In this document: piece after piece, positions 47,784 through 53,326 of the stretch
Numbering within the stretch: position 1 is the first letter of the stretch
How the letters are laid out: each line of letters starts with the position of its first letter
Source: Hydrogenophaga intermedia
Lineage (GTDB): Bacteria > Pseudomonadota > Gammaproteobacteria > Burkholderiales > Burkholderiaceae_C
Direction of reading: 5' to 3'
DNA length: 64,000 bases
NCBI RefSeq assembly: GCF_023715105.1
Contig: NZ_JAMBNO010000009.1
Location: forward strand, 62,001 to 126,000
The notes under the pieces: model-generated
Database searches by the model: none
The model's input: only the letters and a program-made list of their open reading frames with translations
Told to the model about the DNA's origin: nothing
Translations under genes and position numbers: made by a program

Positions 47784-47885
47784 TGATTCGCGGCGTCTTG
47801 CCGCCAGCCGCTGACACACCGGGAACCCGATGTTGTGCCGGACCACGTATCGACGTCATCCACGAAGCCTGCAAGGAATGAATCC

Positions 47886-48962
47886 ATGAAGAGAACATCG
47901 TCCGGGACGCCAACGAGATCGCCTTCGCCATCGCCGACGCGAAGGGTCAGGGGTGAGGGCGAAGCGATTGCCCCGATCGTGCGCACGACGCGCGTATCCA
48001 CGCGATGGCAGGGCATGCACCATCCCGGTCGTCCGACGGTCGTTGTGCTCGTGGTGGGCGGTTGCGAAGGACAAGCCGTGACCCAGCAACTCGACGCGTG
48101 GCAACTGCGCGCCCGGGCGGTGGAATACAACTACGGCGTCATCGAGGCGGGCGACCCTACCGAGAACCTGAGCGAGAGTGCCGCGTTGCTCAAGCAGCAG
48201 GTGCCTGCCAATGCCAAGGTGGTGGTGCTTCAGGCCAATGAGGACGTGCCCGAGGAGAACGTCGAACATGCGCAGGACGCGTTGAGCCATGCCGGTCTCG
48301 CCCGCCAGTCTCTGCCTCCTTGCCTGGCGGACGATGCCGATACGGCCCATCTGCCGGTGTTTCCATCCGAAGCGCAACTGGTCCGGCAGACCCTGCAGGC
48401 GCTGGACACGGGTGGCGCCGGCGAGGCCGTCGACCTGGGGGCTGAAGCGGCCTTCGAAGCACGTCAGCGATCGCTTCAACTCGCGCAACAGCGGCGAACG
48501 ACCGATCAACTCACGGCGGTTCGCCAGCAGCTCGAAGAAGAGGTCCACGCGATGGTCGAACTCGTCCAGGCGATTGATGATCTGCTGCCCGATGAAGAGC
48601 CGCCACCGACGTCGCTGCCATTGGCGCTCAGGCAAGGCATCAACGCGCTGCAGTTCACGCCGCACTGGCAGGCCAGGGCCTCGACGCCGCAGGCCGCGCA
48701 ACTGACGGGGCTGCTCCTGAGGGTGGGGCGGGAATCCGCGTCCGGCGGCGACCCGTCCCTTCAGCTCGCGTCGGGGGCGATTCTGCGGTGCCTGCAGCAC
48801 GACGAAAACGCCCTGAGTGCCGTGCTGGCCGCCGTGGACCGGTGTCTGCCAGAGAGTTCGGACGCGGACCAGTTGGGGGTCTTGCTGGGGGCGGTGTTCG
48901 CATACGAGGTGGGGGCGGCGGCATCGGCCATGGGCGGGGATGCCTCGAGCACCCCGACGTGA
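47886..48962 (+). CDS. Hypothetical protein, unrecognised family
   Basis: A 358-residue product I cannot assign. After a Ser/Pro/Arg-rich, probably disordered N-terminal 40 residues comes an alpha/beta-like segment that starts with a hydrophobic strand (PTVVVLVVGG) and later contains AKVVVLQANEDVPEENV. A helix with heptad character (RQRSLQLAQQRRTTDQLTAV and onward to about residue 240) follows, then an Ala/Leu-rich C-terminal helical part. No signal peptide or membrane helix. The chosen ATG has AAGGA eight bases upstream; a start at 48015 would drop the disordered part. Codon third positions are less GC-biased than in neighbours, which suggests a recent arrival. The opposite-strand frame here is arginine-rich and looks like a shadow. 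Confidence 0.6.
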   Translation: MKRTSSGTPTRSPSPSPTRRVRGEGEAIAPIVRTTRVSTRWQGMHHPGRPTVVVLVVGGCEGQAVTQQLDAWQLRARAVEYNYGVIEAGDPTENLSESAALLKQQVPANAKVVVLQANEDVPEENVEHAQDALSHAGLARQSLPPCLADDADTAHLPVFPSEAQLVRQTLQALDTGGAGEAVDLGAEAAFEARQRSLQLAQQRRTTDQLTAVRQQLEEEVHAMVELVQAIDDLLPDEEPPPTSLPLALRQGINALQFTPHWQARASTPQAAQLTGLLLRVGRESASGGDPSLQLASGAILRCLQHDENALSAVLAAVDRCLPESSDADQLGVLLGAVFAYEVGAAASAMGGDASSTPT

Positions 48963-49065
48963 CTGCCAACGCGGTCAGCACCGCGCCGGTGCCGTGCGGC
49001 CGCGGACCTGGGTGGCCGTAAGGGCATACCCCCCGTCGGAAATGGGGGCGGTGATAGCATCCCCC

Positions 49066-49797
49066 ATGCTCATGAAGACCGACCCCGATCAGACTCCCGG
49101 CGCTGCGCCCCAAGGCGGCGACGAAGGCGTGCCCGTCTCCGTGAAGATCCGCGAGCGGCTCAAGGCCGCCCGGCAGCGCTTTCATTCGAACGACAACATC
49201 GCCGAGTTCATCCAGCCTGGTGAGCTCGACAAGTTGCTCGACGAGGTGACCCGCAAGATGCAAGGCGTGCTCGAGTCGATGGTGATCGACACCGAGAGCG
49301 ACCACAACACCGGCGATACCGCGCGCCGCGTGGCCAAGATGTACCTCAAGGAGGTCTTCGCGGGCCGCTACGTCAAGGGCCCCTCGGTCACCGAGTTCCC
49401 CAACGCGGAGCACCTCAACGAGCTCATGATCGTGGGCCCGATCACCGTGCGCAGTGCCTGCAGCCACCACTTCTGCCCCGTCATCGGCAAGCTGTGGATC
49501 GGCATCATGCCCAACGAACACACCAACGTGATCGGCCTGTCCAAGTACGCGCGCATGGCCGAATGGATCATGGGCCGTCCGCAGATCCAGGAAGAGGCGG
49601 TGATCCAGCTGGCCGACCTGATCCAGGACAAGACACAGCCCGACGGCCTGGCCATCGTGATGGAGGCCAGCCACTATTGCATGGCCTGGCGCGGCGTGAA
49701 GGACATGGACAGCAAGATGATCAACTCCGTGATGCGTGGTGTCTTCCTCAAGGACGCCAACCTGCGCCGCGAATTCCTCTCGCTCATCCCCCGCTGA
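49066..49797 (+). CDS. folE: GTP cyclohydrolase I (divergent FolE)
   Basis: Converts GTP to 7,8-dihydroneopterin triphosphate, the first step of folate/pterin synthesis. The 243-residue product keeps the zinc/catalytic residues: ACSHHFCP (Cys and His) and ASHYC (His and Cys), plus IGLSKYARM and the RPQIQE block. The residues that differ from the E. coli type (GKLWIGIMPN, MINSVMRGVF) mark a divergent branch. The N-terminal about 25 residues are variable. Two ATG codons six bases apart are possible starts, neither with a good ribosome site. The product is the substrate of NudB encoded at 42.5 kb. Confidence 0.88.
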   Translation: MLMKTDPDQTPGAAPQGGDEGVPVSVKIRERLKAARQRFHSNDNIAEFIQPGELDKLLDEVTRKMQGVLESMVIDTESDHNTGDTARRVAKMYLKEVFAGRYVKGPSVTEFPNAEHLNELMIVGPITVRSACSHHFCPVIGKLWIGIMPNEHTNVIGLSKYARMAEWIMGRPQIQEEAVIQLADLIQDKTQPDGLAIVMEASHYCMAWRGVKDMDSKMINSVMRGVFLKDANLRREFLSLIPR

Positions 49798-49817
49798 ACC
49801 CATCTCGCAAGATCACC

Positions 49818-50240
49818 ATGCTCGTTCGCTTGCTCTACGTCAGCCGCGCTGTCGACAAGGACCCCAAGGCCATCGAGGCGATCCTCGACGCGTCGCGCCA
49901 GCACAATGTCAGCAACGGCATCACGGGCGTGCTCTGCTATGGCGGCGGCATCTTCCTGCAGGCCATCGAAGGCGGGCGCGCCGCAGTCAACAAGCTGTAC
50001 AACCACATCGTCGCCGACAAGCGCCATCAGGATGTGGTGCTCCTGCACTACCAGGAAATCAGCGAGCGCCGCTTCGGCGGCTGGACCATGGGGCAGGTCA
50101 ATCTCGCCAAGCTCAACACGTCCATCGTGCTCAAGTACTCCGAGCGCCCCGAGCTCGACCCGTACGCCGTCTCGGGTGCGGTCTCGCTGGCCCTGCTTGA
50201 AGAACTCATGGCCACGGCCAGCATCATCGGCCGGGCCTGA
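49818..50240 (+). CDS. BLUF-domain blue-light sensor protein
   Basis: A 140-residue stand-alone BLUF protein that should bind FAD and sense blue light. The residues known to be needed in BLUF photochemistry are all visible: Tyr7 in MLVRLLYVS, the Asn in HNVSNGITG, the Gln in FLQAIEGG, and Trp/Met in FGGWTMG. No output domain is attached; the last 40 residues form a short helical cap (AVSLALLEELMATAS). Signalling must therefore run through a partner protein. It begins 20 bp after folE and probably shares its message. Confidence 0.93.
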   Translation: MLVRLLYVSRAVDKDPKAIEAILDASRQHNVSNGITGVLCYGGGIFLQAIEGGRAAVNKLYNHIVADKRHQDVVLLHYQEISERRFGGWTMGQVNLAKLNTSIVLKYSERPELDPYAVSGAVSLALLEELMATASIIGRA

Positions 50241-50261
50241 CGCCGCTGCGGCGGTGTCGCC

Positions 50262-51143
50262 ATGCCGCTCGATGCCTTCCTGCTCATCCTGCTCGCCGGC
50301 CTGATCCACGCCGGCTGGAACATCGCCGCCAAGCACGCGGGGGGCGATGCGCGCTTTGCCTTCTTCTCGTCGGCGCTGGTGGCCATCGTCTGGGCACCGG
50401 TGGGCTGGTGGTTTGCTCGCGGTGCACTGGGGCAGTGGGGCGCCGCCGAGTGGGCTTTCGTGCTGGCCAGTGGCGTCATTCACGTCTTCTATTTCGTCAC
50501 TTTGCTGCGTGGTTACCGCCGGGCCGACCTCACGGTGGTCTACCCGCTGGCGCGCGGCAGCGGCCCGCTGATCACCGCGCTGGTGGCGGTGCTCTTCCTC
50601 GGCGAGCAACTCAGCGCGTTGGGCGGCCTTGGCATCGCCGCGGTGGTGGGGGGTGTGTTCCTCATTGCGGGCGGCCCGGGCCTGTGGCGCACCGCGCACG
50701 ACCCGGCCGCGCGAGAGCGGCTGCACCGCGGACTCGCCTACGGCGCGCTCACCGGTGTGTTCATCGCTGGTTATTCGGTGGTCGATGGTTACGCGGTCAA
50801 GGTGCTTCTGATGTCGCCCATCCTGGTGGACTACATGGGCAACCTCGTGCGCCTGGTGCTGTTTGCGCCCACGGTGCTGCGCGACCGCGCGCAAGCGCTG
50901 CGCCTGTGGCGCTTGCAGTGGAAACACGCGCTGGGCGTGGCGGTGTTCAGCCCCATCGCCTATGTCCTGGTGTTGTTCGCCATGCAGCGCGCGCCGCTGT
51001 CGCATGTGGCGCCGGCGCGAGAGGTTTCCATGCTGTTTGCCGCGCTCATCGGCGGCCACCTGCTGCGCGAGGGCGATCGCGCATTGCGCCTGCTGGGCGC
51101 GGTGTTCATTGCGTCGGGCGTGGCCGCGCTCGCCTTGGCATGA
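50262..51143 (+). CDS. EamA/DMT-family transporter
   Basis: A 293-residue inner-membrane protein with about ten hydrophobic helices arranged as two EamA repeats (for example LLILLAGLIHAGWNIAAKHA, and in the second half a repeat starting GLAYGALTGVFIAGYSVVDG). The PLARGSGPLITALVAV segment is typical of this drug/metabolite transporter group. The substrate is unknown. It lies 21 bp after the BLUF gene and 31 bp before the DUF429 gene, all on one strand. Confidence 0.88.
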   Translation: MPLDAFLLILLAGLIHAGWNIAAKHAGGDARFAFFSSALVAIVWAPVGWWFARGALGQWGAAEWAFVLASGVIHVFYFVTLLRGYRRADLTVVYPLARGSGPLITALVAVLFLGEQLSALGGLGIAAVVGGVFLIAGGPGLWRTAHDPAARERLHRGLAYGALTGVFIAGYSVVDGYAVKVLLMSPILVDYMGNLVRLVLFAPTVLRDRAQALRLWRLQWKHALGVAVFSPIAYVLVLFAMQRAPLSHVAPAREVSMLFAALIGGHLLREGDRALRLLGAVFIASGVAALALA

Positions 51144-51174
51144 GCGCCGCGATGCATCACGCGCCAGTCGACCC

Positions 51175-52017
51175 ATGAACACCGCGGACTTCACCCTGCT
51201 CGGTTGCGATTTCACGAGCGCCCCCTCGAAGCGCAAGCCCGTCACGCTGGCTGTGGGCCGCAGCCAGCGCGGCCGCGTTTTGCTCGACGCCATCGAGACC
51301 TACGAATCGCTCGACGCCTGGGGCGAGCGCCTGTGCGCCCCAGGCCCCTGGGTGGGCGGCTTCGATCTGCCCTTCGGTCTGCCACGCGAACTGGTGGAAA
51401 CGCTGGGCTGGCCCACCGACTGGCGAGCCTGCATGGCGCATTACGGTGCCTTGTCGCGCGATGCCATTCGCGACACGTTTGCTGCCTTCTGCGCCGCACG
51501 GCCCGTGGGGTCCAAGTTCGCGCACCGCGCCGCCGACGCTCCCGCAGGCTCCAGCCCCAGCATGAAATGGGTCAACCCGCCGGTGGCGTTCATGCTGCAC
51601 GCGGGCGTGCCGCGCCTGATTGCAGCCGGCGTGCGGTTGCCAGGCCTGAGCGAAGGCGATGCGCAGCGCGTCGCGCTCGAGGCCTACCCGGGCCTGCTCG
51701 CGCGCAGCGTGCTCGGCAGCACCTCGTACAAGAGCGACGACAAGGCCAGGCAGACGCCCGAGCGCCTGATTGCGCGCAAGACGTTGATCAACGCGCTGGA
51801 GAACGGTCAGGCGCCCGCGCTGCAGGCGGCCGGCTTGCGCCTCAAACTCAGCCACGCGCAGCGCGACGCGTTGGCCGACGATGCCAGCGGCGACCGGCTC
51901 GATGCTGTGCTGTGCCTGCTGCAGGCCGCCTGGGCGTTGCAGCAGCACCAGGCGGGTCACCCGCGCTGGGGCCTGCCGGCCTTCGATCCGCTCGAAGGCT
52001 GGATCGTGAGCGCCTGA
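51175..52017 (+). CDS. DUF429 family protein
   Basis: A 280-residue cytoplasmic protein of the DUF429 type, a predicted RNase H-like fold of unknown function. An N-terminal LLGCDFTSAPSKRKP, then GGFDLPFGLPRELV, the Pro-rich block MKWVNPPVAFMLHAGVPRL, VALEAYPGLLAR and an acidic SGDRLDAVLCLLQAAWA are visible. The Asp/Glu residues in these blocks could form a nuclease-like site. GTG/ATG alternatives are absent; ATG chosen. The stop lies 8 bp before the lumazine-synthase-like gene. Confidence 0.82.
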   Translation: MNTADFTLLGCDFTSAPSKRKPVTLAVGRSQRGRVLLDAIETYESLDAWGERLCAPGPWVGGFDLPFGLPRELVETLGWPTDWRACMAHYGALSRDAIRDTFAAFCAARPVGSKFAHRAADAPAGSSPSMKWVNPPVAFMLHAGVPRLIAAGVRLPGLSEGDAQRVALEAYPGLLARSVLGSTSYKSDDKARQTPERLIARKTLINALENGQAPALQAAGLRLKLSHAQRDALADDASGDRLDAVLCLLQAAWALQQHQAGHPRWGLPAFDPLEGWIVSA

Positions 52018-52025
52018 TTCCTACA

Positions 52026-52532
52026 ATGCCTTCCATGCCCCAAGAAGCCCCCCAACCCACTGAACTGCCCCAACTGCCGCGCGATCTGCGCTTTGCCTTC
52101 GTCGAAGCGTCCTGGCACGCCGACATCGTGCAGCGTTCCCGCGATGCCTTCTTCGCCGAGATGGCCCGCGCCGGCTTTGGCTCCGAGGCCATCGACGTGT
52201 TCGATGTCGCGGGGGCGTTCGAGATTCCGCTGCACGTGCAGCGGCTGGCGCAATCGGGTCGCTACGCGGCGGTGGTGGGCAGCGCGCTGGTGGTTGACGG
52301 CGGCGTGTACCGCCATGATTTCGTGGCCAGCACCGTGGTGCAGGCGCTCATGGACGTGCAGTTGCAGACGGGCGTGCCCGTGATCTGTGCCGTGCAGGCG
52401 CCACACCACTTCCACGAACACGTGGAGCACCGCAAGTTCCTGCAGCAGCATTTCGGTGCCAAGGGCACCGAGGCGGCGCAGGCGGTGCTGCTCACCGTGG
52501 CCGGCCTGCGCGCCCTCGACGCACGCGTGTAA
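52026..52532 (+). CDS. ribH: 6,7-dimethyl-8-ribityllumazine synthase, RibH2-like
   Basis: Condenses ribityl-aminopyrimidine with dihydroxybutanone phosphate in riboflavin synthesis. The 168-residue protein follows the lumazine synthase fold: FVEASWHADIVQRSRDAF, the VAGAFEIPLHVQRLA segment, and the active-site region VVDGGVYRHDFVAS. The block APHHFHEHVEHRKFLQQHF is typical of the type II (RibH2) decameric enzymes rather than of the operon-borne RibH. No other rib gene adjoins it, so it is probably a second copy. Two ATG codons nine bases apart are possible starts. Confidence 0.87.
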   Translation: MPSMPQEAPQPTELPQLPRDLRFAFVEASWHADIVQRSRDAFFAEMARAGFGSEAIDVFDVAGAFEIPLHVQRLAQSGRYAAVVGSALVVDGGVYRHDFVASTVVQALMDVQLQTGVPVICAVQAPHHFHEHVEHRKFLQQHFGAKGTEAAQAVLLTVAGLRALDARV

Positions 52533-52584: not shown

Positions 52585-53055
52585 ATGCGACGTACCGTCA
52601 TCCTGCTCTTCACCCATGGCCTGTTCCTGGCCATCGGCTTCGCGGCCGGCATCTACACGCTGCCGCTGCTGATCGCTCCGCCCGCGCCCAGCGCGCAGGC
52701 CGTGGCTGGCGCCGCCCAGGGCGCCAGCTTCACCGGTACCTTCCGCCGCGACCTGAAAGACAGCGACGCCCTGCACTGGGGCGAAGGCACGGTGAGCGTG
52801 GGGCCGCAGCGCATCGTGCTGCAGGGACGCCTGGCCCCGGGGCCGGACTACAAGCTCTACCTCGCGCCTGAATTCGTCGAAACCGAGGCCGACTTCGCGC
52901 GCTTGAAACCGCAGATGCAGCGCGTGGGCGATGTGAAGACCTTCGAGAACTTCATCGTCGACCTGCCGCCGGGCGTGGACCTGCAGCGCTACACCACGGT
53001 CATCGTGTGGTGCGAGACCTTCAACGAGTTCATCACCGCTGCGCAGTACCGCTGA
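52585..53055 (+). CDS. DM13-domain membrane-anchored protein
   Basis: A 156-residue protein: an N-terminal membrane anchor or uncleaved signal (LFTHGLFLAIGFAAGIYTLP) and a DM13 domain outside the membrane (GSF-like start as ASFTGTFRRDL, ALHWGEGTVSV, YKLYLAPEFV, VIVWCETFNEFITAAQY). The conserved cysteine of DM13 is present in VWCETF. DM13 is proposed to have a redox role, but this is not proven. CGGAG precedes the ATG. Confidence 0.85.
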   Translation: MRRTVILLFTHGLFLAIGFAAGIYTLPLLIAPPAPSAQAVAGAAQGASFTGTFRRDLKDSDALHWGEGTVSVGPQRIVLQGRLAPGPDYKLYLAPEFVETEADFARLKPQMQRVGDVKTFENFIVDLPPGVDLQRYTTVIVWCETFNEFITAAQYR

Positions 53056-53104: not shown

Positions 53105-53326
53105 ATGAATTTCGCCAAAGTGGTCGGTGTCGTGCTCATCGCGGCCGGGGCCATCGGCCTCGTGATGGGCAGCTTCAGCTACACCAAGGAGTCCGAGGCC
53201 GTGAAGCTGGGCCCGCTGGAGCTCTCGGTCAAGCAGGAAGAGACCGTCAACGTGCCGGTGTGGGCCGGCATCGGCGCCATTGCCGTTGGGGTGGTGCTGC
53301 TCATCATGGGTGGCCGCAAGGGCTGA
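53105..53326 (+). CDS. DUF3185-like small membrane protein
   Basis: A 73-residue protein with two membrane helices (VVGVVLIAAGAIGLVMGSF and AGIGAIAVGVVLLIMGG) joined by a short polar loop with the family-like segment KLGPLELSVKQEETVNVP. The function is unknown. AGAGGAA lies upstream of the ATG. It ends 10 bp before the nuclease gene. Confidence 0.82.
   Translation: MNFAKVVGVVLIAAGAIGLVMGSFSYTKESEAVKLGPLELSVKQEETVNVPVWAGIGAIAVGVVLLIMGGRKG

Follow-up and report, generated by a model that had tools for sequence, protein, structure and literature searches.

The photoreceptor PixD, a short protein of the BLUF family, forms two stacked pentameric rings in the crystal, and the complexes that it makes with PixE (PixD10-PixE5 or PixD10-PixE4) dissociate upon photoexcitation of two PixD subunits, according to the excerpted text of PMC5899715. 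Human guanosine triphosphate (GTP) cyclohydrolase I (GCH1) is a D5 decamer with GFRP pentamers flanking both ends along the five-fold axis (PMC7750480, in excerpt). In pseudomonads light has been connected with this enzyme, as excerpts of PMC9758184 list FolE among the light-inducible genes of Pseudomonas putida, place pseudomonad folE under LitR-type regulators and report that folM-folE-folX of Pseudomonas mendocina, which adjoin LOV and LitR-type PmlR2 genes, rise modestly upon illumination. Here we analyse a 64,000-nucleotide (nt) stretch of the Hydrogenophaga intermedia genome (contig NZ_JAMBNO010000009.1, positions 62,001 to 126,000; the whole stretch is referred to as the window), in which folE, encoding GTP cyclohydrolase I, the enzyme with which folate synthesis begins, is followed on the same strand by a gene for a stand-alone BLUF protein. 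Most BLUF sensors of this kind have no known partner.

Comparison across genomes shows that the two genes form a conserved pair that is specific to one BLUF subtype. We read it, with middling confidence, as a two-gene operon in which the PixD-like BLUF is the dedicated regulatory partner of FolE. No description of the pair was found in open-licence PMC papers among the matches listed, and in the excerpts of PMC9020721, which deals with BLUF neighbourhoods in Acinetobacter, folE turned up just as part of an author's name and a cyclohydrolase not at all. The features concerned are:

49052-49060, + strand: TGATAGCAT, an extended -10-like element 5 nt 5' of the folE ATG, found by cross-locus comparison
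49066-49797, + strand: folE, GTP cyclohydrolase I of a divergent Burkholderiales type, 243 amino acids (PF01227, 145 bits)
49818-50240, + strand: BLUF, a stand-alone PixD-like photoreceptor, 140 amino acids (PF04940, 104.4 bits)

Linkage of folE and BLUF across genomes

The window BLUF has at least 518 relatives in named genomes. The 80 best of them (78-91% identity) were taken as a set of named loci, which is biased to close relatives. It includes Hydrogenophaga, Acidovorax, Curvibacter, Rhodoferax, Malikia, Tepidimonas, Serpentinimonas, Zwartia, Sheuella and others, with some doubtful labels such as Chitinophaga and Bordetella on metagenome bins. A folE homologue lies directly 5' of BLUF on the same strand in 80/80 of these loci. 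Both genes are complete in 94 loci, counting that of the window. There the distance from folE stop to BLUF start, with start codons picked by script, is 1-65 nt, and 51 of these loci have 1-5 nt.

The pairing was then followed outwards through samples of the genus, family, order and phylum. Among 30 loci kept from matches in 60 genus genomes, folE stands upstream of every BLUF of at least 77% identity (22/22) and of none of those at 44% or less (0/8), and because the loci split so cleanly the linkage is a property of one BLUF subtype and not of BLUF in general. The family sample (120 genomes, 119 genera; gaps measured from match ends rather than stop codons) contains 113 BLUF rows, 101 of which lie directly 3' of this folE across 100 genomes. 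Ten of the remaining 12 belong to a second BLUF group (39-47% identity) that is unlinked to folE and two are fragments from one genome, such that 101 of the 103 rows of this BLUF type directly follow folE. The specificity seen in the genus and family samples led us to reject chance adjacency of the two genes. The second group is likewise PixD-like, its 39-47% identity being to the window BLUF, and was found in the same genomes (G498, G465, G513, G494, G469, G577, G559, G573 and G576) away from this folE. Fragments of folE and of BLUF, each present twice and some at contig ends, were seen in G576 (C45, C47, C17 and C18).

In the order sample (120 genomes; thresholds of at least 62% identity for the folE type, and at least 47% identity with more than 130 bits for the BLUF type) this folE occurs in 23 genomes and this BLUF in 15, and the two are adjacent in 14 of the 15, spread over 8 family codes; a ninth family code with the pair, f32, is represented by L143. 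In the fifteenth genome, G080 (L119, L120), the two genes are on different contigs, each close to an end. A transposable element appears to separate them there, the flanking sequence resembling its two ends when read by eye. Among 299 genomes of the phylum sample the folE type was found in 12, all inside the order, with four other matches at 35-38% identity; outside the order, 6 genomes of the class have BLUF proteins of 40-46% identity.

One genome, G490, holds two folE-BLUF pairs on different contigs (G490:C176 and G490:C56; L161, L162), with folE and BLUF 84/74% and 69/64% identical to the window's, which suggests that the pair may move or duplicate jointly. The duplication also bears on whether BLUF could be a neutral neighbour that was never separated from folE. 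Most pair rows belong to a single family, and relatives may retain gene order, but the pair is kept amid changing surroundings, G490 has two copies of it, and BLUF is under purifying selection, with ratios of nonsynonymous to synonymous substitution rates (dN/dS) of 0.11-0.18 in five comparisons (folE 0.08-0.17, DUF429 0.19-0.21); we regard mere inertia as very improbable.

The enzyme, the sensor and the sequence before folE

The window FolE carries the GTP cyclohydrolase I domain (PF01227, 145 bits against a family cut-off of 27) and falls below the cut-off of the NCBI equivalog TIGR00063 (148.2 against 181.6 bits), which places it in a divergent subtype. The first-pass annotation of this DNA had called folE divergent; this holds for its sequence and not for its orientation, the gene being co-directional with BLUF. 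Eleven positions, which correspond to zinc ligands and catalytic residues of E. coli FolE, are invariant in 110/110 aligned rows. Profile searches of the window's genome (completeness 100, contamination 4.97) gave a single PF01227 match, the FolE of this locus, and zero matches to FolE2 (PF02649); a second folE that could be the housekeeping copy was thus not found. As the sole GTP cyclohydrolase found, with its zinc and catalytic residues invariant, FolE is probably the housekeeping enzyme by which this genome's route to pterins and folate begins. FolE2 is present in 6 of the 15 order genomes with BLUF and a second PF01227 match in 1, which leaves 8, the window's included, where FolE is the only cyclohydrolase of these two families found. 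In G171 (G171:C112:12786-14887; L126) a FolE2 gene lies directly 5' of folE-BLUF on the same strand, placing two kinds of cyclohydrolase and a BLUF in tandem. The structure model of FolE had a mean predicted local distance difference test (pLDDT) score of 51.6 and was not used.

BLUF is the sole Pfam family matched by the sensor (PF04940, 104.4 bits, cut-off 25). The first-pass annotation had credited it with all photoactive residues, and Y7, S9, N30, Q48, W89 and M91 are indeed invariant in 95/95 aligned BLUF proteins, the window's included; these six, with the Tyr, Asn, Gln and Trp/Met positions among them, are residues of the light reaction. The closest solved relatives by both sequence and predicted fold are Tll0078 (TePixD) and Slr1694 (SyPixD), and ranks 1-23 of a Foldseek search with the BLUF model are all one or the other. 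As to a C-terminal segment of PixD type after the BLUF core, the phmmer alignment to Tll0078 extends to residue 130 of 140, but pLDDT of the model is below 50 at residues 95-122 and 135-140.

BLUF proteins bind flavin adenine dinucleotide (FAD), and GTP is the common precursor of pterins and flavins. A BLUF protein sensing flavin occupancy or redox state, rather than light, could in its FAD-loaded form balance the use of GTP by FolE (pterins) against that by RibA (flavins). The same folE-BLUF pairing would be expected of such a regulator, and ribH2 lies nearby in some loci (17/66). The invariance of all six light-reaction residues would however go beyond what flavin binding needs, and we think this explanation quite improbable.

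Immediately before the folE ATG the motif GGTGnTAGCAT is kept in 20/20 aligned rows, the window included. Its core, TGnTAnnnT, lies within 60 nt 5' of the folE start in 65 of 108 loci, usually at a distance of 5-7 nt; within the same range 5' of BLUF or DUF429 starts it was found in 0/159. The other 43 loci lack it. Among them are almost all of those from outside the family, and in a few of these the folE start codon chosen overlaps a near copy. We infer that the conserved element is an extended -10 promoter, in which case a leaderless folE-BLUF mRNA would start at folE itself with BLUF as its second gene. Co-transcription of the two genes is likely, since the element stands at folE starts and not at BLUF starts. 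A consensus scan for sigma-70 promoters gave 0 sites between 48800 and 53500, and a sequence scan for terminator-like sites gave 5 against 2.7 expected, with nothing decisive among them.

Possible coupling of BLUF to FolE

If BLUF is the regulatory partner of FolE, blue light would alter its conformation or oligomeric state, the changed state would change its grip on FolE, and the changed grip would alter the flow of GTP into dihydroneopterin triphosphate, and with it folate and, where they are made, other pterins. Because the five-fold symmetries match, docking of a BLUF ring is a natural hypothesis: the FolE decamer may receive a BLUF pentamer on its five-fold face, in the way that animal GTP cyclohydrolase I receives GFRP pentamers. 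We tentatively put forward a fuller version in which the activity of FolE is switched by blue light, with BLUF pentamers capping the decamer face to face, as a bacterial light-driven counterpart of GFRP-GCH1. Were this so, 8 of the 15 order genomes with BLUF would have it acting on the sole GTP cyclohydrolase found in them.

The two genes might instead be co-transcribed with BLUF signalling to a partner encoded elsewhere, as in the cases of PixE and BluR, and their linkage would then reflect co-expression only. Short BLUF proteins act on separate partners in the excerpted text of PMC5899715, and folE occurs without BLUF in both the order and the family samples. Set against this, one BLUF subtype is tied to one folE type over several families while other neighbours vary, and no third gene was seen to accompany the pair at every locus. 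We consider a separate partner unlikely.

Genomes in which folE stands alone offer a further view of a FolE-BLUF partnership. On FolE trees the presence of BLUF changes at least 4 times among 54 rows and 12 times among 76 rows, and BLUF has therefore been gained or lost repeatedly. The 76-row tree was a quick one comprising 44 of the 101 family pairs, 16 of the 22 lone folE rows and 16 rows from other samples; the lone rows left out (G537:C15, G562, G546, G495 and two G576 fragments) were partial or of canonical type. In L141 and L149 the absence of BLUF looks like loss, because EamA and DUF429 still follow folE. Measured from the shared node, BLUF-less FolE branches are longer than those of BLUF-bearing relatives in 8/8 lone clades (12 rows, median ratio 1.77), while the ratio exceeds 1 in 14 of 53 paired rows (median 0.75), in a comparison that was made without an unrelated control gene and dropped 11 of the 76 rows, namely one of 54% identity and those from genomes that carry folE twice. 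Keeping all rows gave ratios above 1 in 17 of 18 lone and 15 of 58 paired rows; the rows are not independent and only the 8-clade count corrects for kinship. Loss of an interface constraint would do this.

Two other comparisons were made. Pairwise distances over 64 loci correlate at 0.75 for folE-BLUF, 0.64 for folE-DUF429 and 0.70 for BLUF-DUF429, with partial correlations of 0.55, 0.24 and 0.43 respectively, which is weak support for coupling of folE and BLUF. Of 106 FolE sites that are fixed where BLUF is present, 5-8 are altered in five lineages without BLUF, and 2 and 1 in two others, compared with 0-2 in 12 leave-one-out controls.

A number of points weigh against a dedicated FolE partner. 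Of the 23 order genomes with this folE, 8 lack BLUF, and so do 22 of the 123 folE rows in the family, a count that takes in fragments; the enzyme therefore does not need BLUF. Contact between the two proteins and the effect of light, along with its direction, are things we infer from genomes. PixD is also dimeric in solution according to the excerpts of PMC5899715. The BLUF model has a mean pLDDT of 69.5 and its segments below 50 (residues 95-122 and 135-140) form a region possibly relevant to ring formation. The branch ratio is just 1.03 in one lone clade and 1.26 in another, and longer BLUF-less branches could come from generally fast lineages or from a backup FolE2, which is present in 5/8 BLUF-less as against 6/15 BLUF-bearing order genomes (a status taken from the order genomes and not from the lone genomes of the family). 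The distance correlations have DUF429 as their sole control gene, and the BLUF-DUF429 value is nearly equal to that of folE-BLUF. The altered FolE sites are confounded with tree depth.

Neighbouring genes and known systems

Downstream of the pair the window holds further genes on the same strand, and an open reading frame (ORF) lies upstream:

50262-51143, + strand: EamA-family transporter, a local neighbour outside the conserved core (PF00892, 70.8 bits)
51175-52017, + strand: DUF429-like protein, a local neighbour frequent in Comamonadaceae (PF04250, 22.3 bits, just below the Pfam cut-off of 23)
52026-52532, + strand: ribH2, type II lumazine synthase, a local neighbour (DMRL_synthase, 120.6 bits; equivalog NF009084, 221.8 bits, above its cut-off of 160)
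52585-53055: DM13 gene after ribH2, beyond the end first noted for the run (Pfam scan)
53105-53326: short DUF202-like gene after the DM13 gene (21.7 bits, cut-off 23.4)
47835-48962, + strand: ORF 5' of folE

The start of the upstream ORF is uncertain and both 47835-48962 and 48075-48962 were scanned. It has no Pfam match, the 295-residue part (48075-48962) is also without an NCBIfam match, and no counterpart was found in the flanks of the best 80 named loci.

The first-pass annotation had suggested that folE, BLUF, EamA, DUF429 and ribH2 could be one light-linked unit governing flavin and pterin supply or export, with the transporter or the DUF429 protein as effector. Gene calls and family matches bear out the placement of all five genes on one strand, with gaps of 20, 21, 31 and 8 nt. 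Across the best 80 named loci DUF429 is a neighbour in 64, EamA in 31, RibH2 in 20 and DM13 in 6. With enough sequence to judge, DUF429 is present in 59/71 and EamA within 600 nt downstream of BLUF in 31/71; where at least 3.6 kb is available downstream (n=66) DUF429 is found in 55, RibH2 in 17 and all of EamA, DUF429 and RibH2 in 13. None of the three was found in the 13 order-level pair genomes outside the genus (G080 counted as one), for which the stretches fetched mostly covered 6 kb per side. In 10 of the 12 unsplit order-level loci outside the genus the next open frame after BLUF is on the opposite strand, according to crude gene calls that take the longest open frames, some of them surely spurious. 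DUF429 and/or EamA also follow folE where BLUF is missing (for example in L141, L148, L149 and L150, with both present in L141 and L149).

We therefore rejected the five-gene operon as a unit, as EamA, DUF429 and RibH2 vanish outside close relatives while folE stays adjacent. Despite the short gaps on one strand and the frequency of DUF429 and EamA among named loci, we give very little credence to a unit of BLUF with EamA, DUF429 and RibH2 in control of flavin or pterin supply or export. The comparison of neighbourhoods that had been proposed to decide the matter finds the suggested effectors changing freely from genome to genome, leaving neither EamA nor DUF429 (nor RibH2) supported in that role. 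FolE is the better candidate, because folE stays adjacent while these genes vary. The underlying idea of a blue-light sensor tied to pterin supply thus survives through folE, with strong genomic support, and falls away for the remaining genes. A group of loci including Zwartia and Sheuella (L082, L083, L088, L099, L103 and L108) has, in place of DUF429, a transporter gene from a different family 3' of BLUF and co-directional with it; Pfam assigned it to MFS in L082 and L099, the two checked.

A BLUF subtype that practically always follows folE names a concrete partner, and the proposal is testable with two small soluble proteins. Many related bacteria of water and soil have retained the pair, a pattern suggesting that light may adjust their pterin and folate supply. 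If the proposal is right, a central route would be adjusted by blue light in bacteria of which most are not known to be phototrophs, and the FolE-BLUF complex could be used as an optogenetic switch for pterin and folate supply.

Known systems resemble the locus in different respects. Fusions of BLUF to enzymes, such as photoactivated adenylyl cyclases and BlrP1, resemble the proposed arrangement in having a BLUF domain that controls an enzyme; the window BLUF is however unfused, its enzyme is another one, and the fusions rank below PixD by sequence and fold. The pseudomonad LOV and LitR systems likewise tie blue light to the supply of GTP cyclohydrolase I, but LOV acts there through transcription regulators (PMC9758184, in excerpt), whereas here BLUF stands in tandem with folE and no such regulator was seen among the genes scanned. 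Like GFRP, the window BLUF would be a small protein that forms rings and acts on a GTP cyclohydrolase I decamer. It differs in matching BLUF alone in Pfam, with no match to the GFRP family, and GFRP action depends on phenylalanine and tetrahydrobiopterin (BH4), not on light, in the excerpted text of PMC7750480. From PixD and PixE the locus is set apart by an identity of about 34% to PixD, by a metabolic enzyme as constant neighbour and by the lack of a response regulator, and with it of a PixE partner, among the eight adjacent genes to which the scan was limited. The window BLUF is nevertheless a short stand-alone protein of the same length class, and SyPixD Slr1694 and TePixD Tll0078 are its nearest solved relatives by both sequence and predicted fold.

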